DNA of 64,000 bases, from positions 3,976,501-4,040,500 of the forward strand of contig NZ_CP011509.1 of NCBI RefSeq assembly GCF_001027285.1, read 5' to 3'. The stretch comes from Archangium gephyra. Lineage in GTDB: Bacteria; Myxococcota; Myxococcia; Myxococcales; Myxococcaceae. Under the pieces are notes generated by a model that ran no database searches, was not told the origin of the DNA, and saw only the letters and a list, made by a program, of their open reading frames with translations. This document shows, one piece after another, positions 47,405 to 60,585 of the stretch. The translations under genes and the position numbers were made by a program. Each line of letters begins with the position of its first letter. The stretch's first letter is position 1.

Positions 47405-48310
47405 ATGCGCCTCCTCCGTTTGAGCTTCCTGCTGCTCCTCGTGGCCCTGGCCAGCGCGTGCAGCCGCAATGTTCCCTCGCTGGTGCCCAAGCCGGGTGCG
47501 CCGCCTTCCCCGCGGCTCGAGTTCCGCCCTCCCGATGACGCGGTCCTCACCGAGTCCCTGAAGAGCTCCGTGGGACGCAGTGGCGCGCCGGGCACGCAGG
47601 AAGCGGAGTTGACCACCGTCACGCGCTTCACCCCGGAGCAGGGTGGTTGGCTCCTCACGCAGAGGGTGACGCAGGCTCGCTACTCGCGGGACGGGGCCCC
47701 GGTGGAGACGCTGGTGGATGATGTCCTCACGCGCTTCGCCTTGCGCGTACGGCTCGCGGGGGACGGAGCCTACGTAGGGGTGGTGGAACCCGAGGCCGCG
47801 CTGGTGGCGCTCGCGGCGGTGGCCCCGGCGGGGCAGGACGTCTCGCCGTTGGAGGGCTTCTTCGCCCCGGAGGCACTGGAGAACCGCACGCGGTCCGAGT
47901 GGGACGTGAAGTACGGCGGCCTCTACGGGCGCGCCTGGGAGCCGGGTGCGCGCTCCTATGTGGTGGGCACGGTCCCCCTGGGCGGGCGCGAGGTGACGTA
48001 CCTCCTGGAGCGCACCTTCTCCGGGACGGTGCCCACCGGGCATGGCGAGGCGATGCTGTTCTCGCTGCGCTGCCTGGAGGCCCCGGGAGCGGACGCATCC
48101 CCCCAGGTGCTCGAGGCGTTGAGCCAAGCGGGGAACCCGGAGCTGACGCCCGGGGTTCAGTGCGAGGGAGAACAGTTGCTCGGACGAGGCCGTTTCATCC
48201 CGGTGCGGCGCGGGCTCACCTTGCGGGCGACGTTGGACGGAGAGACCTGGACGTGGGCAGCGAAGTCGCAACTGGAGTCGCTGCAGGCGCCCGAGGAGGA
48301 GCGGAGATGA
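47405..48310 (+). CDS. Lipoprotein of unknown function
   Basis: 301 aa. Lipoprotein signal with lipobox ASAC (C19). The body is a predominantly beta protein with segments like LTTVTRFTPEQGGWLLTQRV, FALRVRLAGDGAYVGVV and REVTYLLERTFSGTV, and short acidic loops. It has a long middle part (GLYGRAWEPGARSYVVG) but no catalytic residues stand out. The stop overlaps the CoA-binding gene (ATGA). Tethered to a membrane; role unknown. Confidence 0.75.
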   Translation: MRLLRLSFLLLLVALASACSRNVPSLVPKPGAPPSPRLEFRPPDDAVLTESLKSSVGRSGAPGTQEAELTTVTRFTPEQGGWLLTQRVTQARYSRDGAPVETLVDDVLTRFALRVRLAGDGAYVGVVEPEAALVALAAVAPAGQDVSPLEGFFAPEALENRTRSEWDVKYGGLYGRAWEPGARSYVVGTVPLGGREVTYLLERTFSGTVPTGHGEAMLFSLRCLEAPGADASPQVLEALSQAGNPELTPGVQCEGEQLLGRGRFIPVRRGLTLRATLDGETWTWAAKSQLESLQAPEEERR

Positions 48311-48747
48311 GCTACGAGCAGAACCTCATCGAGGATGAGGCGGGCATTCGCGCGGTGGTGCAGGCCAGCAAGCGCGTGGCGGTGCTGGGCATCAAGACGG
48401 AGCAGCACGGCGGCCAGCCGGCCTTCTACGTGCCGCAGTACCTGGCGGGGGCGGGCGTGGACGTGGTGCCAGTGCCCGTCTACTACCCGGACGTGACGCA
48501 CATCCTCGGCAAGCCGGTGTTCCGGCGGCTGGTGGACATCCCGGGCGACGTCGATCTCGTGGACGTGTTCCGGCGGCCCCAGGACATCGACCAGCACGTG
48601 GACGACATCCTCGCCAAGAAGCCCAAGGCCGTCTGGTTCCAGTCCGGCATCCGCAACGACGCGGCGGCCGAGAAGCTGGCCCGGGCGGGCATCAAGGTGG
48701 TGCAGGATCGCTGCCTGATGGTGGACCACCGGCGCTACGGCCGCTGA
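48307..48747 (+). CDS. CoA-binding domain protein (YccU type)
   Basis: 146 aa from ATG 48307. It consists of a single Rossmann-like CoA-binding domain: VAVLGIKTEQHGG, ...FYVPQYLAGAGVDVVPV, VDLVDVFRRPQDI, AVWFQSGIRNDAAAEKLARAGIKVVQDRCLMVDHRR. The C-terminal RCLMVDHRR motif (cysteine plus histidine) is diagnostic of the YccU class, which binds CoA and may act in metabolism or regulation. Overlaps the lipoprotein gene by four bases. Confidence 0.85.
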   Translation: MSYEQNLIEDEAGIRAVVQASKRVAVLGIKTEQHGGQPAFYVPQYLAGAGVDVVPVPVYYPDVTHILGKPVFRRLVDIPGDVDLVDVFRRPQDIDQHVDDILAKKPKAVWFQSGIRNDAAAEKLARAGIKVVQDRCLMVDHRRYGR

Positions 48748-49741: not shown

Positions 49742-50638
49742 ATGGAAGAGCTGTCACAATCCTTCCGGGCCCTGGGTGACCCGACACGCTTGCGCATCCT
49801 GCGGCTGATGGCGCGGGCTCCGCTGAACGTGTCGGAGCTGGTGTCCCTGGTGGGGGTGGCGCAGTCCTCGGTGTCGCACCACCTGGGCAAGCTCAAGGGG
49901 CTGGGGCTCATCCGCGAGGAGCGGCAGGCGGGCTTCACCTACTACTCGCTGTCGCTGGAGCCGCAGGACGCGCGCTGGCCGCTCATCCGCCTGGCCCGCG
50001 AGGCTACCGATGACGAAGGGGACCTGGCCCGGCTCGAGGATCTCCTGCGCCAGCGCGAGGACCGGCAGGCCCTCAACGAGCGGCTGCTGGAGCCCGGCCA
50101 GTCCTGGTTCCTGTGGGCGGGGGCGCTGGCCTCGCTGCTGCCGGCGCTGGACGTGGCGGACTTCGGGTGCGGCACGGGCGTGCTGTCGGTGGCCATCGCC
50201 CGGTGGGCCTCGCGGGTGTGGGCCATCGACCAGAGCGAGGCCGCGCTGGCCCAGGCCCGCGAGCGCGCCGCCCGCGAGGGCCGCACCAACATCACCTTCC
50301 TGCGCGAGGATCTGCACCGGCTGTCGCTGCCCCCGGGCCAGCGCGACCTGGTGGTCATCTCCCAGAGCCTCCACCACATGGAGTCCCCGCCCGCGGTGCT
50401 GGCCGAGGCCGCGCGCCTCCTCAAGCCCGGGGGCAAGCTGGTGCTGTTGGAGTTGATGCCCCACGACGAGCGGTGGGTGTTGGATCGGCTGGGCCACCGG
50501 CACCTCGGCTTCGCGCCGGAAACGCTCGAGGCTTCCCTGCGCGAGGTGGGCTTTGGCGCCCTCACGCGCGAAACCCATGCACGCGAGGGGGCGAGCCCCT
50601 TCCGCGTCTTCCTCCTCACTGGAGTCAAACAGTCATGA
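49742..50638 (+). CDS. ArsR-type regulator fused to SAM-dependent methyltransferase
   Basis: 298 aa. Residues 1-75 are an ArsR winged helix (FRALGDPTRLRILRLM, LNVSELVSLVGVAQSSVSHHLGKLKGLGLI). Residues 125-298 are a class I methyltransferase with motif I VADFGCGTGVLSV, acidic loop AIDQSEAAL, and motif LLKPGGKLVLLEL. No metal-binding Cys are seen, so this is not a metal sensor; binding of SAM or SAH is the natural ligand. Such fusions are often beside methionine-cycle genes, and metH follows with only 52 bases between. Proposed role: SAM/SAH-responsive control of metH. Confidence 0.85.
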   Translation: MEELSQSFRALGDPTRLRILRLMARAPLNVSELVSLVGVAQSSVSHHLGKLKGLGLIREERQAGFTYYSLSLEPQDARWPLIRLAREATDDEGDLARLEDLLRQREDRQALNERLLEPGQSWFLWAGALASLLPALDVADFGCGTGVLSVAIARWASRVWAIDQSEAALAQARERAAREGRTNITFLREDLHRLSLPPGQRDLVVISQSLHHMESPPAVLAEAARLLKPGGKLVLLELMPHDERWVLDRLGHRHLGFAPETLEASLREVGFGALTRETHAREGASPFRVFLLTGVKQS

Positions 50639-50690
50639 GCAGCCATCTTCCCGCCCCCTTCCTCTTCCTCCGGGGCAGCACGGCCGACGC

Positions 50691-53600
50691 GTGGAGGCCC
50701 TGCGGGCCGCGATGCGCGAGCGCGTGCTGGTGCTGGATGGCGCCATGGGCACCCAGTTGCAGGCCCAGAACCTCAAGGCCGCGGACTTCGGCGGCGCCGA
50801 GTACGAGGGCTGCAACGAGTACCTCGTCCTCACCCGGCCGGAGGTCATCCAGGGCATCCACGCCGCCTACTTCGCCTCGGGCGCGGACGTGACGGAGACG
50901 GACAGCTTCGGCGGCACGCCGCTGGTGCTGGGCGAGTTCGGCCTGTCGCACAAGGCGATGGAGATCAACCTCGCCGCCTCGAAGCTGGCCCTCAATGCCG
51001 CCGAGGCCGCCGAGGCGAAGGACGGGCGGATGCGCTGGGTGGCGGGCTCCATCGGCCCCACCACCAAGGCCATCAGCGTGACGGGGGGCATCACCTTCGA
51101 GGAGCTGGTGGACAACTTCGCCCTGCAGGCCGAGGGGCTCGCGCTGGGCGGCTCGGACTACCTGCTGGTGGAGACGTGCCAGGACACGCGCAACGTGAAG
51201 GCGGCGCTGCTCGGGTGCGAGCGGGCCTTCCGCAAGCTGGGGTGGAAGCTGCCGGTGGCGGTGTCCGGCACCATCGAGCCCATGGGCACCATGCTGGCCG
51301 GCCAGTCCGTGGAGGCGCTGGCGGCCTCGCTGGAGCACGTGGAGCTGCTCTACCTGGGCCTCAACTGCGCCACCGGCCCCGAGTTCATGACGGACCACAT
51401 CCGCTCGCTGGCCGCCATGAGCCCCTTCGCCGTGTCGTGCGTGCCCAACGCGGGCCTGCCGGACGAGAACGGGCACTACCTGGAGTCCCCCGAGATGCTG
51501 GCGCGCTCGCTGCGCCGCTTCTGTGAGCAGGGCTGGCTCAACGTGGTGGGCGGTTGTTGTGGCACGCACACCGGACATGTGAGCGCCATCGCCCAGGCGG
51601 TGAAGGGCCTCACGCCTCGCCGCCAGCTCCCGCCGCCGCGCTCCACGCTCTCCGGCGTGGACTTCCTGGAGGTGCGCGACGAGGAGCGTCCCGTCATCGT
51701 CGGCGAGCGCACCAACGTCATCGGCAGCAAGAAGTTCAAGGAGCTCATCGTCGCGGGGCAGCTCGAGGACGCCTCGGAGATTGCCCGCGCCCAGGTGAAG
51801 CGGGGCGCGCAGGTCATCGACATCTGCCTGGCCAACCCGGACCGGGACGAGCTCGAGGACATGCGCCGTTTCCTGGAGGTGGTCGTCAAGAAGGTGCGCG
51901 TGCCCCTGATGATCGACTCCACGGACGAGCGCGTGCTCGCCATGTCGCTCACGTACTCGCAGGGCAAGGCCATCATCAACTCCGTCAACCTGGAGGACGG
52001 CGAGGAGCGCTTCGAGAAGGTGGTGCCGCTGGCGCGCGAGTTCGGCGCGGCGCTGGTGGTGGGCTGCATCGACGAGCAGGGCATGGCCGTCACCCGTCAG
52101 CGCAAGCTGGAGGTGGCCGAGCGCTCCTTCGCGCTGCTCACCGGCAAGTACGGCATGAAGGCGGAGGATCTGTACTTCGATCCGCTCGTCTTCCCGTGCG
52201 CCTCGGGCGACGCGCAGTACACGGGCAGCGCGGTGGAGACCATCGAGGGCGTGCGCCTCATCAAACAGCGCTTCCCCCAGTGCAAGACGGTGCTGGGCAT
52301 CTCCAACGTGTCCTTCGGCCTGCCCACCGCCGGCCGCGAGGTGCTCAACTCGGTGTTCCTCTACCACTGCGTCCAGGCGGGCCTGGACATGGCGCTCGTC
52401 AACTCGGAGAAGCTCGAGCGCTACCCGTCGCTGCCTCCCGAGGAGCGCCAGCTGTCCGAGGATCTGCTCTACAACCGGGGGGGAGATCCCGTGACGCCCT
52501 TCGCCGCGCACTTCCGCGAGCGCAAGCCGAAGAAGGCGGACGTGAGCACGCTGCCGCTGGAGGAGCGGCTGCAGCGCTACATCATCGAGGGCAGCCGTGA
52601 CGGCCTCCAGGCGGACCTGGACCTGGCGCTGCAGAAGTACGCGCCGCTGGAGATCATCAACGGCCCGCTGATGAAGGGCATGGACGAGGTGGGCCGGCTC
52701 TTCGGCGCCAACGAGCTCATCGTCGCCGAGGTGCTCCAGAGCGCCGAGTCGATGAAGGCGGCGGTGAGCTACCTGGAGCCGCTGATGAGCAAGGCCCAGG
52801 CGGCCAGCCGCGGGAAGATCGTGCTCGCCACGGTGAAGGGCGACGTGCACGACATCGGCAAGAACCTGGTGGAGATCATCCTCGCCAACAACGGCTTCCA
52901 GGTGGTGAACCTGGGCATCAAGGTGCCGCCCGAGCAGCTGGTGCTGGCGGTGCGCGAGCACTCCCCGGACATCCTCGGCCTGAGCGGCCTGCTGGTGAAG
53001 AGCGCGCACCAGATGGTGGCCACGGCGGAGGATCTCAAGCGCCAGGGCGTGGACGTGCCCATCCTGGTGGGCGGCGCCGCGCTGAGCCGCAACTTCGTGG
53101 ACCGCAACATCGCGCCGGCCTACGGGGGCGGCACTGTGGCGTACGCGCAGGACGCCATGAGCGGCCTGGAGCTGGCCAAGCAGATCGTCGACCCGACGGC
53201 CCACGAGAAGCTCAAGGGCGAGCTGGCCGAGCGCCGCACGAAGCTGTCACAGCAGGACAAGGATCGGCCCAAGGCCAGCGCCCCGGTGGTGGCGGCGCGC
53301 AGCAAGGAGGTCCCCATCCTGGAGCAGGTGCCGCCCGCGCCGGACTACACGCGGCACGTGCTGACCAACACCCCGCTGGACACCATCTGGCGCTTCATCA
53401 ACCCGGTGATGCTCTACGGGCGCCACCTGGGCCTGCGCACGGCCTCTCGCGCGCTGGGCACCCCGGCCGAGGCGGAGCTGGCCAAGACGGACGAGGGCCG
53501 CAAGGCGCTCGCGCTCAAGGAGCAGGTGGAGCTCATCAAGGGCTCGCTGCGCGGCGGGCGCATGCAGGCCAAGGCCGTGTTCCGCTTCTTCAAGGCGGGC

Positions 53601-54149
53601 GGTGAGGGCAACCGCCTCCACCTCTTCGACGGCGAGACGGGCCAGCCCTCCGTGGCCTTCGAGCTGCCGCGCCAGGACAAGCCGGACGGGCTGTGCCTGG
53701 CCGACTTCGTCCAGCCGCTGGAGAACGGCCAGCCGCGCGACAACGTGGCCATGTTCGTGGTGACGGCCGGCCAGGGCATCCGCGAGCTGAGCGAGGAGTA
53801 CAAGGCCAAGGGCGAGTTCCTGAAGATGCACGCGGTGCAGGCGCTCGCGCTGGAGACGGCCGAGGCCTACGCCGAGATGCTCCACACCCAGCTGCGCAGC
53901 ATGTGGGGCTTCCCGGACAAGCCGGACATGACGATGCTCGAGCGCTTCCGCGCCGAGTACCAGGGCAAGCGCTACTCCTTCGGCTACCCCGCCTGCCCCC
54001 GCCTCGAGGATCAGACGCTCCTCTTCCAGGCCCTGCGCCCCGAGGACATCGGCGTCCAGCTCACCGACGGCTGCATGATGGAGCCCGAGGCCAGCGTCTC
54101 CGCGCTCGTCTTCCACCACCCCCAGGCACACTACTTCTCAGTGTCGTGA
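50691..54149 (+). CDS. metH: Cobalamin-dependent methionine synthase
   Basis: 1152 aa from GTG 50691; ATG 50577 would overlap the regulator and is less likely. Four modules in order: homocysteine-binding (about 1-310, with zinc ligands C226 in NCATG and C289-C290 in GGCCGT), pterin-binding methyltetrahydrofolate domain (about 330-590, VGERTNVIGSKKF), B12-binding cap and Rossmann domain (about 620-870, DVHDIGKN with H720 as the lower cobalt ligand), and the reactivation domain (about 930-1140, GYPACPRLEDQ). It transfers methyl from methyltetrahydrofolate to homocysteine. Probably controlled by the ArsR-methyltransferase protein encoded just upstream. Length slightly below the E. coli 1227. Confidence 0.95.
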   Translation: MEALRAAMRERVLVLDGAMGTQLQAQNLKAADFGGAEYEGCNEYLVLTRPEVIQGIHAAYFASGADVTETDSFGGTPLVLGEFGLSHKAMEINLAASKLALNAAEAAEAKDGRMRWVAGSIGPTTKAISVTGGITFEELVDNFALQAEGLALGGSDYLLVETCQDTRNVKAALLGCERAFRKLGWKLPVAVSGTIEPMGTMLAGQSVEALAASLEHVELLYLGLNCATGPEFMTDHIRSLAAMSPFAVSCVPNAGLPDENGHYLESPEMLARSLRRFCEQGWLNVVGGCCGTHTGHVSAIAQAVKGLTPRRQLPPPRSTLSGVDFLEVRDEERPVIVGERTNVIGSKKFKELIVAGQLEDASEIARAQVKRGAQVIDICLANPDRDELEDMRRFLEVVVKKVRVPLMIDSTDERVLAMSLTYSQGKAIINSVNLEDGEERFEKVVPLAREFGAALVVGCIDEQGMAVTRQRKLEVAERSFALLTGKYGMKAEDLYFDPLVFPCASGDAQYTGSAVETIEGVRLIKQRFPQCKTVLGISNVSFGLPTAGREVLNSVFLYHCVQAGLDMALVNSEKLERYPSLPPEERQLSEDLLYNRGGDPVTPFAAHFRERKPKKADVSTLPLEERLQRYIIEGSRDGLQADLDLALQKYAPLEIINGPLMKGMDEVGRLFGANELIVAEVLQSAESMKAAVSYLEPLMSKAQAASRGKIVLATVKGDVHDIGKNLVEIILANNGFQVVNLGIKVPPEQLVLAVREHSPDILGLSGLLVKSAHQMVATAEDLKRQGVDVPILVGGAALSRNFVDRNIAPAYGGGTVAYAQDAMSGLELAKQIVDPTAHEKLKGELAERRTKLSQQDKDRPKASAPVVAARSKEVPILEQVPPAPDYTRHVLTNTPLDTIWRFINPVMLYGRHLGLRTASRALGTPAEAELAKTDEGRKALALKEQVELIKGSLRGGRMQAKAVFRFFKAGGEGNRLHLFDGETGQPSVAFELPRQDKPDGLCLADFVQPLENGQPRDNVAMFVVTAGQGIRELSEEYKAKGEFLKMHAVQALALETAEAYAEMLHTQLRSMWGFPDKPDMTMLERFRAEYQGKRYSFGYPACPRLEDQTLLFQALRPEDIGVQLTDGCMMEPEASVSALVFHHPQAHYFSVS

Positions 54150-54319
54150 GATGGTTGACGCCGGAGTAGGCGTTATGGCGGTATGAAGCCCACATTTTAA
54201 CACCTGGGTCAGTTTTGTCCCAGTGGTGGGTCATCCGCGATACTGGACGTGCGAAATCATGGTAGAAGTCCATCCCCACTGGTAGCGCGGTGGGGCCGAT
54301 TGCCTCATCCTGGAGGCCC

Positions 54320-55330
54320 ATGAGCACACGCAGTTCGGAAGGCCGTCATTTCGGAGTCGTTCGGGAGCTGAAGAATCAGTACGCGGAGGCCCAGTCCCCG
54401 GGGGTTCCGAAGGAGCAACTGGAGCGCATCCAGGCGCGGGTGAAGGAGCTGTTGCCGTCGCTGATGGCCTGGCGGGAGCGCTTCCCGGCCATCATGGCCT
54501 CGCGGCTCAAACCCGCCACGTTGGGTAGTGTGGCGGGTCACCCGGAGGTGACGCTCGAGCAGCACCTGCTCATCGCCAAGGCGGGGCTGCTGGTGTTCGC
54601 CGTGGACGACATCGCGGACGGGGAGATCGGCTCGCTGGAGGACGCGGAGATGCACCGCGTGTTCGAGCGCTACGTGGAGACGGCCCGTGCTCCGGACTCG
54701 CAGGAGTGGACGGGGACGGACGAGGGCAGCCTCGTGGGCGGCGCGGTGCAGGACGTGGCGAGGCAGCTGCACGCGGCTCCGGGAGCGGGGCGCTTCCTGG
54801 CGCTCTGGCAGGAGCACTTCCGGCGCATGTGCTCCGGCCACCTGACGGAGCTGCGCGACAAGCGCCGCTACCAGCGCGAGGGCGCGCTGCCCACGCTGGA
54901 GCACTACCTGGACGTGTCGCGGTGGACGTGCGGCGCGCCCATGTACCACAGCGCGGCGCTCGTGGTGCTCGGGCCGGAGTTCGCGGCGGATCCCCTCCAG
55001 GAGCCGCTCGTGGAGCACGCCCTGTCGGACATGGCGCTGCTGGGCCGGTGGATGAATGACGTGCGCAGCCTGGAGCGCGAGCGCGCCGAGGGGAAGGTCA
55101 ACAGCCTGACCCTGCTGTGCGCGGCGGGCATGTCCGAGGCGGACGCCGAGCGCGAGGCGGTGAAGCGCTCCGGCGAGCACCTCGAGTCGCTCGCGGACGT
55201 CGCCGGACGCCTCCCCGAGCCGCTGCGTCCCTGGGGGAAGACGCTGGTGGCGACGGGTCACTTCAGCCGGATGTTCTACATGCAGCGCGAGTTCCACCAT
55301 CCCGAGTCCAGCTCTCGCGAAGAGGCCTGA
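54320..55330 (+). CDS. Class I terpene synthase
   Basis: 336 aa from ATG 54320 with GGAGG five bases upstream. The metal-binding Asp-rich motif is DDIAD (D96, D97, D100) and the second metal triad is N246-D247-S250-E254 (NDVRSLERE), both intact, so the protein should ionise a prenyl diphosphate with Mg2+. The fold is all-helical with hydrophobic core helices as expected. It overlaps the class II cyclase by one base (TGATG), so the two are made together and probably act in sequence. Without an isoprenyl synthase in the window the substrate is unsure, but a class II partner suggests copalyl-type diphosphate or GGPP. Confidence 0.85.
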   Translation: MSTRSSEGRHFGVVRELKNQYAEAQSPGVPKEQLERIQARVKELLPSLMAWRERFPAIMASRLKPATLGSVAGHPEVTLEQHLLIAKAGLLVFAVDDIADGEIGSLEDAEMHRVFERYVETARAPDSQEWTGTDEGSLVGGAVQDVARQLHAAPGAGRFLALWQEHFRRMCSGHLTELRDKRRYQREGALPTLEHYLDVSRWTCGAPMYHSAALVVLGPEFAADPLQEPLVEHALSDMALLGRWMNDVRSLERERAEGKVNSLTLLCAAGMSEADAEREAVKRSGEHLESLADVAGRLPEPLRPWGKTLVATGHFSRMFYMQREFHHPESSSREEA

Positions 55331-56868
55331 TGAAACGCATCCAGGATGTCTTGTTGGCGGAGCTGCACTCGCTGGTGTCTGCCCTGGGTTCGAAGGGCGG
55401 GCTGATGAGCCCCTCCGTCTACGACACGGCGCAGATGCTCCTGACGCTGCCTCCGGCGGAGGGAGGCTGGCCCGCGGTGGAGTGGCTGCTGTCCCAGCAG
55501 CACCCGGATGGAGGATGGGGAGACCCGGCCATGCCGCTGCACCGGGACATCCCCACGCTGGCCGCCGTCCTCGCGTTGCGGGAGTACGGGCGCCGCCAGG
55601 GAACCCGCGCCGCCATCCAGGAGGGCGTGTCCTTCCTGCGCAAGCAGGCGGCGCTGTGGGCCACCATGGCCAAGGACGATCTGCCCGTGGGTGGGGAGAT
55701 CGTCCTGCCCGGCCTGTTGAACCAGCTCGACGCGGCCGGGGAGATGCACATCCCCCGCAGGCCCTACGGCAAGTTGATTGAGTTCGGCGAGCGCAAGCGC
55801 CAGTCCGTCACGAAGCTGCCGAAGGTGCCGGGCATGCCGTGGAACCACGTCTGGGAGAGCACCGGCACCGAGCCCGAGCCGTGGCTCATCGACGGCGCGG
55901 GAGGTCTCAGCCACAGCCCGGCGGCGACGGCGGCGTGGGTGAAGGCCGCCTCGGGCCGGCCGGAGCTAGAGGAGACCGCGCAGCGCGCGCGCAGGTACCT
56001 GTCCAACGCCGAGCGCGCGTGCGAGATGGGGATTCCAGGCGTCACCTCGACCGTCTACCCGTTCGATCGCTACGAGCAGCTCTTCTCGCTCTACGCCCTG
56101 CAGATCGCCGGGGTGCTCAAGGATCCGCGCCTGGAGGGCGTGGTGATGCCCATCGTCCGGGAGCTGGCCTCGGCGCTGGGCCCCAAGGGCATCGCCATGA
56201 GCGACTACTTCCTGCAGGACGGAGATGACACGGCGGCGGCCGTGCTGCTCCTGCACGAGTTCGGCTACCCGGTGGACCTGTCCATCCTCTACCGCTTCCA
56301 GAACGACAACCACTTCGTCGCCTACGCGGGGGAGATGCACCCCTCGCCGACGGTGACGGCCCGCTGCATCCACGCCCTGATGGTGATGGGCCGGGACGTG
56401 GCGCCCTTCCAGCGCTTCCTGCTGGACCGCCAGGACGCGGATGGGCGCTGGACGGTGGACAAGTGGAACCGCTCCTGGCTGTACACGACGGGCCACGCGG
56501 CCATCGCCCTCATCGGCTCTCCGCACGTGGAGGCGCTGCGCGAGGCCGTCGAGGCCGTGCTCGTGTGCCAGAACCGCGACGGCGGCTGGAGCACCAATGG
56601 CCCCTCCAACCTGACGGAGACGGCCTACGCGGTGCTGATGCTCGCCTACCTGGAGCGCCACGGCTTCATCAACCAGGGCATCACCCTGTCGCTGGACCGG
56701 GCCTTCGCGTGGATGCTGCAGAACTACCGGCCCTTCGCCCGGCCCGACACCAAGGTGAAGTGTTGGATCGCCAAGGAGCTGTATCGCGTGGACCGCATCG
56801 ACACCATCTTCGAGCTGAGCGCCATGTTGATGCTCGACGAGCGCAAGTCGAAGGAGCGCGGCGGCTGA
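55330..56868 (+). CDS. Class II diterpene cyclase (DxDD)
   Basis: 512 aa from ATG 55330. A squalene-hopene-cyclase-like alpha-alpha barrel with several QW-type repeats (QQHPDGGWGD, RQDADGRWTVDKW, CQNRDGGWSTNG). The protonation motif is DGDD (D297, D299, D300) in a QDGDDTAA context, fitting class II terpene cyclases that cyclise GGPP to a copalyl/labdadienyl diphosphate. Length (512) agrees with bacterial class II cyclases. Squalene-hopene cyclases are larger (~630). Substrate FPP to drimane type is an alternative. Coupled to the class I synthase and ends in the hairpin at 56876. Confidence 0.85.
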   Translation: MKRIQDVLLAELHSLVSALGSKGGLMSPSVYDTAQMLLTLPPAEGGWPAVEWLLSQQHPDGGWGDPAMPLHRDIPTLAAVLALREYGRRQGTRAAIQEGVSFLRKQAALWATMAKDDLPVGGEIVLPGLLNQLDAAGEMHIPRRPYGKLIEFGERKRQSVTKLPKVPGMPWNHVWESTGTEPEPWLIDGAGGLSHSPAATAAWVKAASGRPELEETAQRARRYLSNAERACEMGIPGVTSTVYPFDRYEQLFSLYALQIAGVLKDPRLEGVVMPIVRELASALGPKGIAMSDYFLQDGDDTAAAVLLLHEFGYPVDLSILYRFQNDNHFVAYAGEMHPSPTVTARCIHALMVMGRDVAPFQRFLLDRQDADGRWTVDKWNRSWLYTTGHAAIALIGSPHVEALREAVEAVLVCQNRDGGWSTNGPSNLTETAYAVLMLAYLERHGFINQGITLSLDRAFAWMLQNYRPFARPDTKVKCWIAKELYRVDRIDTIFELSAMLMLDERKSKERGG

Positions 56869-56875
56869 GGCCAAC

Positions 56876-56898
56876 GGGGCACCCCACGCGGGTGCCCC
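56876..56898. terminator. Strong bidirectional terminator hairpin
   Basis: GGGGCACCC (56876-56884) pairs with GGGTGCCCC (56890-56898) across a five-base loop, and outside it GAGGCC and GGCCTC extend the stem. It lies between the convergent cyclase and P450 genes and can stop transcription from both sides. Confidence 0.8.
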
Positions 56899-56923
56899 GG
56901 GCCTCGGTCCGGGCGGGGGGCGC

Positions 56924-58351
56924 TTATGCCACCCGGCTCACGGGGGCGTCCTTGCGGTGCTCCACCCTCATCTTCAGGTGCGAGGGGCGCAGCGTCACCG
57001 TGAGGACCTCGGGAGAGATCTCCTGGCCATCCACCAGCTCGATGTGGAGCCGCTGGACCATGGTGGCCACGATGAGCTGCTTCTCCATCAGGGCGAAGTG
57101 GTTGCCGATGCAGGTGTGCGGGCCCGCGCCGAAGGGGAACCAGGCGTAGCGCGGCAGCTGCTTCTCGCGCTCCGGCAGGAAGCGATCGGGATCGAAGCGC
57201 TCCGGGTCCGGGAAGAACTTCTCATCGCGGTGGATGATGTAGGGCGGCATGAGGACCATCTGCCCCTTGGGCAGACGATAGCCCTCGATCTCCAGGTCCT
57301 TCGTGGGCGCGCGGGCGAGCATGAAGATGACGGGGTAGAGCCGCAGCGACTCCTTGATGACCTGGAGCGTGTAGCGCAGCTGGGGCAGGTGCTCGAAGGC
57401 CGGAGGGCGTCCGCCCAGGACGGTGTCCACCTCCTGGCGCACGCGGGCGAGCACCTCGGGGTGGCGGGCCAGCAGGTACCACGTCCAGCCCAGCGAGAGC
57501 GCGGTCGACTCATGCCCGGAGTAGATGGTCATGAGATCGTCGTGGAGCTGATCCTCGTCGATGGGCTGGCCCTCCTCGTCGCGCACCTGCACCAGTGAGG
57601 ACAGCATGTCCTTGCGCTGCGCATGGTCCACGCGCCGCTGGCGGATCATCCCGCGGAAGGTCGTGTCGATGGTGCGCAGGGCCTCGCGGACGCGCCGGTT
57701 GCGAGGTGTCGGCCAGGAGAGGGGAATCTGCACGAGGCTGGAGGTGAGGTACTCGATGTGCTCCAGGGCCTGCCCCATGGCGCCGAGCAGCTCGTTCGTC
57801 TCGTGGCGGTAGTCCACGTCGAAGAGCGTCTTGCCGATGATGCGCATCGTCAGGGTGGCCATCTCGTCGTGGACGTCGAACGTCTGTCCGTCCCGCCAGC
57901 CCTCGATGGCATCCAGGGTGTACTGCACCATGGTCTGCGTGAAGTGGGCGAGCTGCTCGCGCTGGAAGCTGGGGGCCAGCAGCTTGCGCTGCTTGCGGTG
58001 CTGGGGCCCGTGGAGCAGCACCAGGCTGCGCTCGCCCACGAGCGGGGTGAAGGTCTTCACCAGGGGGCCGCCATCCACGTCGTTGGCGTGGGTGTGCAGC
58101 AGGGTGTGCGAGATGCTTCCGGAGGTGACGACCTGGACGGGGACCGGACCGATGCGGATGGTGCCGATCTCTCCGCAGCGCTCCTTGATGTCGCGGAACA
58201 GCTTCAGCCGGTGGTGCCTGAAGTCGGACAGGTTGCCCAGCAGGAAGCCGCCAGGGAAGCGGGGGATGTCCCTGGCGGTGGGGAGGGGGTGAGGGCGGGA
58301 GCGGGGGAGGGCTCCGGAGGGTGACCTACGGGGGCGGGGGAGTCCATCCAA
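56924..58351 (-). CDS. Cytochrome P450
   Basis: 475 aa taking TTG 58351 as start (no ATG/GTG with better support lies close; the start is uncertain by a few codons). P450 hallmarks: I-helix oxygen motif YSGHESTALS, ExxR in KESLRLYP, PERF-type FDPDRFLPER, and the heme loop FGAGPHTCIGNH with Cys at about 414. This is a soluble bacterial P450 needing separate electron donors, none nearby. Convergent with the terpene cyclase pair across 56 bases, it is a good candidate for oxidising their product, although opposite strand makes a single regulon uncertain. Confidence 0.85.
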   Translation of the reverse strand: MDGLPRPRRSPSGALPRSRPHPLPTARDIPRFPGGFLLGNLSDFRHHRLKLFRDIKERCGEIGTIRIGPVPVQVVTSGSISHTLLHTHANDVDGGPLVKTFTPLVGERSLVLLHGPQHRKQRKLLAPSFQREQLAHFTQTMVQYTLDAIEGWRDGQTFDVHDEMATLTMRIIGKTLFDVDYRHETNELLGAMGQALEHIEYLTSSLVQIPLSWPTPRNRRVREALRTIDTTFRGMIRQRRVDHAQRKDMLSSLVQVRDEEGQPIDEDQLHDDLMTIYSGHESTALSLGWTWYLLARHPEVLARVRQEVDTVLGGRPPAFEHLPQLRYTLQVIKESLRLYPVIFMLARAPTKDLEIEGYRLPKGQMVLMPPYIIHRDEKFFPDPERFDPDRFLPEREKQLPRYAWFPFGAGPHTCIGNHFALMEKQLIVATMVQRLHIELVDGQEISPEVLTVTLRPSHLKMRVEHRKDAPVSRVA

Positions 58352-58418: not shown

Positions 58419-59269
58419 CTAGCGGCACTGCAGGCCGAGCCAGGCACGGTCGAACCGGCAAGCGCGGAGATCCTGCTCACGGAGGAGGAGGTAGAGGTTG
58501 CCCCCATCGCCCCAGGTGAAGCCCGTCTGGTCATCCGAGCCGATCTGCCACAGCAGGCGCCAGGCGGAGGCACCGGGCTCGAGCCGGCGCGCTTCGGGGG
58601 AGTCGTAGCCGCGCGAGTCGCCGCAGTACAGGCCGTGGGTGACGAGCTCGGCCTCCAGGCGGGCGTCGTTCTGGATCCACCAGGGATGGCCCTCCACCTG
58701 GTGGGCGTGCTCGCCGCCGGTGAGCCGCTCGCGCAGGACGGCGTAGTCGTCCGCCTGCTCCTGGCCCCACTCGTCCGCGGGCAGGGGCGCGCGGCGGTCC
58801 CAGGGGTCCGGCAGGCAGACGCCGAGCCGGGGCTCCAACCGCAGCGGCAGGTCGAAGGCCAGGCCGGCGTCCTCCAGCTCCTGGGGGGGCGCGAGGGGCA
58901 CGGCCTCGTCGCGGCGCGGCGTCCAGACGAGCTTCCAATACGCGCTGTCCTTGGGGTTGTACCCCAGCGTTGCTCCTGCGCGTCGTAGAAGAGGGCGAGG
59001 ACGCCCTCGCGGGGCAGGTGGGGCAGGGCCTCGCCCCGGCACGCGGCGAGCTCGGCGAAATCGAGCTGGCCCACGAAGACGAGCAGGCCGCGGGGAGAGC
59101 GGGGCCACTCCGTGCCCGGTGGGACGAGCGGGTGTCCTCCATAGCGGCAGCCGGGCATGTCCGGATCCTCCGCGTCCCGGGCGGAGAAGAGGAGGCAGGG
59201 CGCGGCGGCGGACTCGAGGCGCTCGTGCCAGGCCTGGAGCGAGGAGGGAAGGGGAGGGAGCTCGAGCAT
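58419..59269 (-). pseudogene. DUF1963 (YwqG-like) gene broken by a frameshift
   Basis: The N-terminal half reads from ATG 59269 (MLELPPLPSSLQAWHERL... FYDAQEQRWG), the C-terminal half is in another frame (GYNPKDSAYWKLVWTP ... CRFDRAWLGLQCR). They join at a run of four Cs on the plus strand (58962-58965, four Gs in the gene); one more base there restores the reading. The whole, about 283 aa, matches DUF1963/YwqG proteins with conserved PGCRYGG, EWPR, LVFVGQLDF and EGHPWWIQND. Could be real decay or a homopolymer error. The run-on frame makes an apparent fusion with the P450 that should be ignored. Confidence 0.75.
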
Positions 59270-59331: not shown

Positions 59332-59475
59332 ATGCTCACGCGGACGCTCGAGCTCGACGGACCCGTTCACTCCATGGAGATTCCGGACGAGGTCCTCGCC
59401 ACTGTGGAAACGTGGATGGATGGACCGGGCCGGGCGGCCCTGGGCAAGGGAGAGCGGGTGGCGCGGGCTTCCTGA
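59332..59475 (+). CDS. Possible 47-aa small protein
   Basis: A short frame from ATG 59332 to TGA 59475 reads MLTRTLELDG, HSMEIPDEVLATVETWMDGPG, ending VARAS. It has GAAGCGGG upstream and no overlap with other genes. Mixed acidic/hydrophobic helix-like content; no domain. It lies 15 bases before the core-MetE-like start, so it may be co-transcribed. Coding status is unsure. Confidence 0.4.
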   Translation: MLTRTLELDGPVHSMEIPDEVLATVETWMDGPGRAALGKGERVARAS

Positions 59476-59490
59476 GGTTAGACTCGGGGC

Positions 59491-60585
59491 ATGAGCGCGC
59501 CGAACATCCGCCGGGCCATCCAGCTGCTTCCCACGTGTGCCACCACGGGCGTCGGGAGCCTTCCGCACACGCAGCTCGAGCTGGGCCTGCAGGCCGCGCT
59601 CGCGCTGGACATTCCCTTCCTGCCGCAGCTGCCGGTGGGGAGGCCCGCGGAGTTCATGATTCCGCAGGCGCTCGAGGGGTTGCCGGGCCTGCGGTGGGAC
59701 GACGAGGGCATGTGCACGGTGGACCTGGGGGCGTGGGAGGCGGGGCGCGCGGATTTCCTGGAGCGGCTGGAAGCGGCGCTGTCCTCGGGAAGGCTGGAGG
59801 GCTTCGAGCCCTCGCTGGACAATTGCCGGGCCTGGAGGCCCTTCCTCTGGGAGGTGGAGAACCGGAAGCTGGCCTTCGCGAAGGCGCAGCTGGCGGGGCC
59901 CTTCACGGTGCGCTCGGTGGCGCGCACGAGCGAGGGGCACGCGACGTTGGACGTGCCGGGACTGGACGAGGCCATCTTCCGGCTGGTGCTGGCGCGCTCG
60001 CTGGGGATGGTGAAGGCGCTGCGGCGGGCGGGGACGACGCCGCTCTTCTTCCTGGACGAGCCGGGCCTGTACGCCTTCGAGCGCTCCAACCCGAGGCACC
60101 TGCTGGCGATGCAGGAGCTGCGGCTGCTGGTGGTGGCGTTGCAGCGCGAGGGAGCGCTGGTGGGCGTGCACTGCTGCGGCAACACGGACTGGGCGAGCCT
60201 GCTGGACGCGGGGCTGGACGTGCTGTCGCTGGACGTGCGGCTGTCGCTGGACGCGGTGCTGGAGGAGTCGGGAGCGTTCTCGCGCTTCCTGGACTCGGGG
60301 GCGACGCTGAGCCTGGGCATCATCCCCACGGACTTGGCGTCCACCTACGCGGTGGAGGAGCTGGTGGACGCGGTGGAGGTGTCCCTGAAGGCGGCGCTGC
60401 CACCGGGCCACGGTTTCGAGCGGGTGGGCTCGCAGGTGCTGCTGACGCCGGCCTGCGGCCTGGCGATGCGCACGGTGGTGGACGCGGAGCGCGTCCTCGA
60501 GCAGCTCAAGGTGGCGCAGCGCCGGCTCCAGGAGGCGCTGCTGGCCGAGCCGGTGGCGGCGGGCCGGCCCCCCTACGCGAGCTGA
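59491..60585 (+). CDS. Core-MetE-like methyltransferase (UROD/MetE fold)
   Basis: 364 aa. It has the TIM-barrel of the MetE/UROD family: N-terminal TTGVGSLPHTQ, LAGPFTV, FLDEPGLY, and zinc residues in HCCGNTDW (His and Cys) and TPACGLAM (Cys). It contains only the catalytic half of MetE, without the N-terminal duplicated domain. Short proteins of this kind (core-MetE) make methionine using methyl from a corrinoid protein rather than methyltetrahydrofolate in some microbes. Whether this one does so, or acts on another thiol, is not known; metH is 5 kb upstream. Converges on the MBL gene with a 13-base overlap. Confidence 0.75.
   Translation: MSAPNIRRAIQLLPTCATTGVGSLPHTQLELGLQAALALDIPFLPQLPVGRPAEFMIPQALEGLPGLRWDDEGMCTVDLGAWEAGRADFLERLEAALSSGRLEGFEPSLDNCRAWRPFLWEVENRKLAFAKAQLAGPFTVRSVARTSEGHATLDVPGLDEAIFRLVLARSLGMVKALRRAGTTPLFFLDEPGLYAFERSNPRHLLAMQELRLLVVALQREGALVGVHCCGNTDWASLLDAGLDVLSLDVRLSLDAVLEESGAFSRFLDSGATLSLGIIPTDLASTYAVEELVDAVEVSLKAALPPGHGFERVGSQVLLTPACGLAMRTVVDAERVLEQLKVAQRRLQEALLAEPVAAGRPPYAS

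Follow-up and report, generated by a model that had tools for sequence, protein, structure and literature searches.

Sorangiadenosine and 2-hydroxysorangiadenosine consist of a eudesmane sesquiterpene bonded to adenosine, and 22 genes in Vitiosangium cumulatum MCy10943 have been put forward as their candidate cluster (PMC7321100, cited throughout from the parts of that paper available to us). According to the published nuclear magnetic resonance data, a eudesm-11-ene is bonded at C-4 to adenine, with a heteronuclear multiple-bond correlation from the C-15 methyl to C-6', and attachment at N-1' is excluded; the authors of PMC7321100 call such C–N coupling of a hydrocarbon to a nucleoside unprecedented. 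They linked genes and compounds by comparative genomics, metabolomes, and labelled feeding, and named genetic tests as future work. Here, we compare this cluster with a locus in a stretch of 64,000 nucleotides from Archangium gephyra (contig NZ_CP011509.1, positions 3,976,501 to 4,040,500; hereafter, the window), where a class I terpene synthase gene and a class II cyclase gene lie in tandem and face a convergent cytochrome P450 gene. By gene content and order, the locus is a new member of the published candidate cluster type. Whether it is a sorangiadenosine-type biosynthetic cluster in which the pair acts as we propose below, with the class I enzyme first and a predicted coupling by the class II enzyme, we regard as evenly balanced.

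Colinearity with the candidate sorangiadenosine cluster

Read from right to left, the window follows the order of sora4–9, 13–15, 18, and 19, with eleven consecutive counterparts, one of them a remnant (Table 1). Most sizes agree within a few residues, and the metH open reading frame of the related locus L037, at 1171 residues, equals sora13 in length. These counterparts were matched by size, order, and annotation, not by the V. cumulatum sequence, on the assumption that the sora numbering follows the order in the genome. Genes for a P450, a class II enzyme, a class I enzyme, MetH, an S-adenosylmethionine (SAM) methyltransferase, and a patatin succeed one another in the published order, the terpene genes and the P450 gene thus standing beside MetH and the SAM methyltransferase in both clusters. 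For one counterpart, the annotations diverge: sora18 is an O-acetylhomoserine sulfhydrylase in PMC7321100, unlike the CoA_binding_2 reading of the protein at its place here.

The window differs from the V. cumulatum cluster in having no counterparts of sora16–17 or of sora10–12, the latter including a second class II gene (sora12) and a sensory transducer gene (sora11), both of which are absent between the class I gene and metH. According to PMC7321100, a similar cluster occurs in A. violaceum Cb vi76, and both Archangium clusters lack sora12; the cyclase pair of that strain (L007) is 94% identical to that of the window. A class II gene (DGDIT), a chemoreceptor gene, and a gene for a 432-residue protein are found elsewhere in the genome, at G000:4.45 Mb (L034), and resemble sora10–12 (387, 609, and 509 residues) in content and size.

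The authors of PMC7321100 name Sora8 a "eudesmadiene transferase", and suggest hydroamination or alkylation by Sora8 and Sora12. Table 3 of that paper gives "2 x Type II" for the cluster, and in the available parts Sora8 is not identified mechanistically as a class II cyclase. As judged from its sequence, the Sora8 counterpart in the window is a class II cyclase. A sequence-only reading of this DNA had called the cyclase pair uncharacterised, which has to be revised with regard to the product, since there is a proposal for that of the orthologous cluster; it still applies to the genes, none of which was tested in the parts of PMC7321100 at hand.

Table 1. Features of the locus, in window positions, with their counterparts in the published cluster (PMC7321100, available parts).
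Feature	Position	Strand	Basis	Counterpart
301-aa protein	47405..48310	+	no Pfam match	sora19 (302 aa, hypothetical)
146-aa protein	48307..48747	+	93% over 146 residues to the CoA_binding_2 protein of L037	sora18 (147 aa), from length and location
Patatin-like protein, 291 aa	48760..49635	-	Patatin, E 6.2e-28	sora15 (292 aa, patatin)
ArsR-type HTH and SAM methyltransferase, 298 aa	49742..50638	+		sora14 (299 aa)
B12-dependent methionine synthase MetH	50553..54149	+	S-methyl_trans, Pterin_bind, Met_synt_B12	sora13
Class I terpene synthase (alpha domain), 336 aa	54320..55330	+	Terpene_syn_C_2, DDIAD, NDVRSLERE, PDB 9kgb	sora9 (333 aa)
Class II (beta-gamma) cyclase, DGDD, 512 aa	55330..56868	+	PDB matches, tree, motifs	sora8 (518 aa)
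Hairpin between convergent genes	56866..56906	.	folding; kept in L036, different hairpin-like sequence in L038	
Cytochrome P450	56924..58351	-	p450, E 2.6e-86; TTG 58351 in frame	sora7 (457 aa)
DUF1963 gene in two reading frames	58422..59269	-	two tblastn matches in different frames; Pfam of L036 homologue	sora6
Alpha/beta hydrolase remnant	59374..59472	+	only last 33 residues match; Pfam of L036 homologue	sora5
364-aa protein	59491..60585	+	no Pfam or NCBIfam match	sora4 (364 aa, named MetE)

Identity of the two cyclases

The class I open reading frame runs from an ATG at 54320 to a TGA at 55330, with an in-frame GTG at 54290 as another possible start. Its product matches Terpene_syn_C_2 (E 3.4e-25), and both metal-binding motifs, DDIAD from residue 96 and NDVRSLERE from residue 246, are intact; with DDxxD and NSE motifs in this domain, the protein is assigned to the class I terpene synthases. 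The ATG of the class II gene, at 55330, has its A in common with the class I stop codon (TGATG, an overlap of one base). The class II protein is matched by SQHop_cyclase_C (E 4.8e-10), and its acid motif D297-G-D299-D300 (DGDD, residues 297–300) is intact. The 61-base stretch between the stop codons of the class II and P450 genes folds into a hairpin of -40.7 kcal/mol (z -2.56), 1 of 200 shuffled sequences being as stable; the hairpin has no T-run, which leaves a classical terminator unsupported. The ATG in the window that matches the start of the P450 gene of a relative falls outside the P450 frame, and a TTG at 58351 is the in-frame alternative. The gene-level description in the sequence-only reading, i.e., two adjacent cyclase genes coupled by TGATG, the three DxDD aspartates, intact class I motifs, and a P450 converging across a strong hairpin, was borne out in all these respects. 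It had also noted that no geranylgeranyl diphosphate synthase is encoded nearby, and indeed no prenyl diphosphate synthase is: the genome has six polyprenyl-synthetase matches, of which none is in the window and the nearest is ~0.84 Mb away.

As for the class II protein, the PDB matches 7xkx (5.1e-33), 6vpt (1e-29), and the ent-copalyl diphosphate (ent-CPP) synthase 5bp8 (1.2e-22) align near end to end or over its core, and the match to squalene-hopene cyclase has an E value of only 6e-4. In a tree of 32 rows, the protein joins proteins of a neighbouring genus group of four genomes, designated g6 (support 91/84, not a starred branch), and then other bacterial diterpene-type cyclases; squalene-hopene cyclase and the L091 protein stand apart from the other 30 rows (90/91), at a weak joint where very long branches meet. 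Considering only positions that are invariant in eight reference cyclases, the window protein differs at 9 of 53 and squalene-hopene cyclase at 26, while left-out references differ at 1–17 of 55–71, so that the nine changes alone are no proof of a new substrate. Based on the PDB matches, the tree, and the invariant positions, an identity as squalene-hopene cyclase is ruled out, and the assignment of the DxDD protein outside that family in the sequence-only reading is upheld. By its size (~500 residues), DxDD motif, and grouping, the protein fits the bacterial class II diterpene-cyclase family. An AlphaFold model (mean pLDDT, the predicted local distance difference test, 38.1; three near-identical sequences) was set aside.

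The folds and motifs of both classes are also those of a labdane-related diterpene pathway, in which the class II enzyme would cyclise geranylgeranyl diphosphate (GGPP), giving a copalyl-type diphosphate for ionisation by the class I enzyme, and the P450 would oxidise the product. The sequence-only reading had favoured this logic, and the enzyme families that it named, a class II and class I pair with a P450, agree with the Pfam, PDB, and tree results. Rhizobia and Streptomyces have the same pairing in plasmid operons, alongside genes for P450s and prenyl synthetases, and the closest plasmid relatives of the class II protein are rhizobial genes in operons of P450, short-chain dehydrogenase/reductase, and prenyl synthetase genes (36% identity over 98%). 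The window P450 is, in addition, one of seven top-scoring relatives, and the loci of all seven contain class I, class II, UbiA, or chemoreceptor genes, one of these loci being a P450–class I–class II cassette in G121. The rhizobial operon (L100, L101, and L105), which we take to be the gibberellin-type copalyl diphosphate synthase/kaurene synthase operon, shares with the window adjacent class II and class I genes, the former 34–36% identical in sequence, and P450s. It differs in that the class II gene precedes the class I gene, in the inclusion of a prenyl synthetase gene, and in class I genes that are not close to that of the window; the best match to the rhizobial kaurene-synthase-like gene has an E value of 0.005 over 38 residues, which counts against a labdane pathway. 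The catalytic-base dyad of gibberellin-type ent-CPP synthases is LHS/PNV (PMC11795633 and PMC11469919, in the parts available), whereas the window protein has NHV/STV. Thus, His173 of the LHS motif is kept, in favour of diterpene chemistry, and S240-T241-V242 replaces PNV, which speaks against it but is not decisive because one rhizobial reference (R. phaseoli) carries PSV. The cluster also lacks a GGPP synthase gene, whereas the plasmid operons carry one, and this absence would equally be expected of a pathway from farnesyl diphosphate (FPP). Given the gene-by-gene correspondence between the locus and a cluster put forward for a C15 eudesmane–adenosine compound, labdane-type logic with GGPP as substrate is not the best reading, and we consider it unlikely.

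The closest solved structure to the class I protein is that of tolypothrichol synthase (9kgb; 1.6e-23, 24% identity). A fold search by Foldseek with a modest AlphaFold model (mean pLDDT 62.6) returns the same structure (E 2.3e-10, template-modelling score 0.72) together with T-muurolol synthase, abietadiene synthase, and a pimarane-type synthase, and the best NCBIfam matches are sesquiterpene synthases, far under the cut-off.

The PDB entry 6vpt, presumably Rv3377c, has DCDTT as its acid motif, compared with DGDDT in the window protein. The mycobacterial tuberculosinyl adenosine pathway (Rv3377c/Rv3378c), which is drawn as an analogue in PMC7321100, resembles the system proposed here in combining a class II cyclase with an adenosine-coupled terpene. 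The partner enzymes are different, as Rv3378c couples a diphosphate to adenosine and the partner in the window is a canonical class I synthase.

Further class II genes occur in the genome of the window, and those of the L034 type (7 rows) carry DGD[ILT]T, similar to DCDTT in 6vpt. In the loci examined, this paralogue (L034:8766-10319, G000:4.45 Mb; L022, L043-L045, L088, and L089) is always accompanied by a chemoreceptor gene, and often stands beside a gene for a 430-residue protein without a Pfam match, a content that resembles sora10–12. At L091:5533-8427 (G000:8.59 Mb) and in L119, a 548-residue squalene-cyclase-like protein with a DVDD motif is encoded with a separate HAD phosphatase and a chemoreceptor adjoining, an arrangement resembling a split version of the HAD-fused drimane-type cyclases. 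A Nonomuraea record (L106:5001-7576) holds a class I gene that lacks an annotation, with a DCDTT class II gene on the other strand.

Conservation of the pair and proposed reaction

Among 145 genomes of the order, with relatives counted at E <= 1e-8, a class II relative is present in 11 and a class I relative in 9. Four of the six genomes in the genus group of the window contain the window-type class II gene (84–100% identical) and also a close class I gene (77–100% identical), and the remaining two have neither. The tandem is located downstream of metH in all four genomes with both genes; TGATG is kept only in the nearest relative (L036), and the two genes are separated by 39 bases in L037 and by 74 bases in L038. 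A P450 gene is present at three of these four loci (92% identical in L036, 58% in L038) and missing from the L037 locus, the best P450 match in that genome being 40% identical. The ratios of nonsynonymous to synonymous substitution rates (dN/dS, Nei-Gojobori) between the window genes and three orthologues are 0.22, 0.18, and 0.28 for the class II gene and 0.23, 0.26, and 0.54 for the class I gene, with values of 0.29 and 0.75 for the P450 gene. Both cyclases are under purifying selection. We regard the pair as real, conserved, and beyond a chance association, and predict that it is probably functional. A decaying or silent cluster, with broken accessory genes and a pair that has no selected product in this strain, would account for the sora6 counterpart extending over two frames, the sora5 counterpart being reduced to 33 residues, and the P450 start lying out of frame, but is highly improbable given that both cyclase genes are open and show the selection just described.

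In g6 (G072–G075; L039–L042), a class II gene with 56–58% identity occupies the corresponding place in all four genomes, adjoining the same patatin and 301-residue protein genes as in the window. No class I relative was found anywhere in these four genomes at the same threshold; the pairing is therefore not obligatory. Flavin monooxygenase-like and SGL-repeat genes stand beside the class II gene at three of the four loci, and at two loci it is preceded by a short stretch matching the end of metH, possibly a remnant. Judging by these arrangements, the class II gene seems to be the constant element, around which class I and P450 genes can be exchanged. The Cystobacter diterpene cystodienoic acid was weighed as a product and dropped, as g6, presumed to be Cystobacter, has the class II gene and no class I relative.

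The occurrence of class II genes without a class I neighbour, at all four g6 loci of the window type and at loci of the L034 type, could also mean that the class I enzyme performs the entire reaction from FPP to a eudesmyl cation and its capture by adenosine, and that the class II enzyme makes a different compound with other partners. The sesquiterpene synthase matches of the class I protein in NCBIfam point in the same direction. On the other hand, the tandem is kept in all four genomes with both genes, and overlapping in two, and the published producer has a second class II gene (sora12) that accompanies a higher yield, according to the authors of PMC7321100. We find this division of labour improbable.

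The reading that we prefer is one in which the class I enzyme acts first and the class II enzyme second, with adenosine as the trap. Since the eudesmane skeleton requires class I 1,10-cyclisation of FPP, the class I enzyme would act first, and the position of its gene ahead of the class II gene counts for the same order. It would ionise FPP drawn from primary metabolism, and 1,10 ring closure would give neutral germacrene A or a eudesmadiene. Class I enzymes are able to make such a neutral precursor and DxDD enzymes are suited to alkene protonation; protonation and transannular closure of germacrene A give the eudesmane C-4 cation, and C-4 is the site of water entry on the way to intermedeol. 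The DxDD acid of the class II enzyme would thus protonate the neutral alkene to yield the C-4 cation, and N-6 of adenosine would capture this cation in a proton-initiated C–N coupling. The P450 may hydroxylate C-2, and the adenosine would come via S-adenosylhomocysteine from MetH and the SAM methyltransferase, as proposed in PMC7321100. Our tentative suggestion is that a class II cyclase has here become an intermolecular coupler: the DxDD enzyme would protonate the neutral sesquiterpene from the class I enzyme and let adenosine N-6 trap the cation, in what amounts to a terpene hydroamination.

Several points weigh against this proposal. To our knowledge, there is no published enzyme for such a terpene–adenosine coupling. 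By sequence, the class II protein is closest to prenyl-diphosphate cyclases, including that of the rhizobial gibberellin-type operon, and its changes at the reference-invariant positions fall within the spread of the left-out references. The g6 genomes retain the class II gene with no class I relative. The parts of PMC7321100 available to us contain no knockout, heterologous expression, or enzyme test; later pathway work was not searched for. Finally, the P450 start and the sora6 and sora5 counterparts look damaged in the window, where the DUF1963 and hydrolase genes beside the P450 (58422-59472) are broken and those of L036 are open; because of this damage, the window strain may make less of the compound, or another one.

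Chemoreceptors adjoining terpene genes

A subfamily of methyl-accepting chemotaxis proteins with multiple membrane spans adjoins terpene-forming genes of several kinds, i.e., class I, class II, squalene-cyclase-like with HAD, and UbiA (L038:5993-7813; L034:6524-8746; L043, L044, L045, L085-L092, and L116-L134). Hydropathy analysis of eight receptors indicates 4–6 membrane segments in the first ~260–300 residues and no large soluble domain. With residues 1–303 of the L038 chemoreceptor as query, 68 matches were obtained in 11 genomes. Of the 36 best receptor matches, 17 have a class I or class II gene no more than 3 kb away, and of 66 matches 19 do; random placement predicts 0.19 and 0.35, respectively. 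In a control set from nine of these genomes, consisting of chemoreceptors with similarity in the signalling part only and leaving out one fragment of a split subfamily member, 0 of 29 are within 20 kb, among the matches listed.

Because orthologues are not independent, 44 receptors were clustered by sequence. In the stronger group (at least 150 bits), 11 of 13 clusters have a class I, class II, squalene-cyclase-like with HAD, or UbiA gene a few genes away, the exceptions being L117 and the L092 group. The latter numbers 11 members, with one on a contig of 3 kb, and has polyketide and FAD genes. Of the seven weaker clusters, one has such a terpene neighbour. The receptor gene follows the P450 gene of the window-type cluster in L038, and no match to the subfamily was found at the cluster in the window, L036, or L037. 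The published cluster includes sora11, a sensory transducer of 609 residues (PMC7321100). In a literature search on this point, an association of receptors with terpene genes was not stated in the available parts of PMC6997564. That the terpenoids of these loci are signals read by the accompanying membrane-embedded chemoreceptors is a separate and doubtful idea, which we consider less likely than coupling by the class II enzyme.

Should the pair work as proposed, a class II cyclase would make a C–N bond between a hydrocarbon and a nucleoside, and adjacency of class I and class II genes alone need not mean labdane chemistry. If the association with receptors holds beyond these 11 genomes, it would name terpenoids for which predatory bacteria have candidate receptors.

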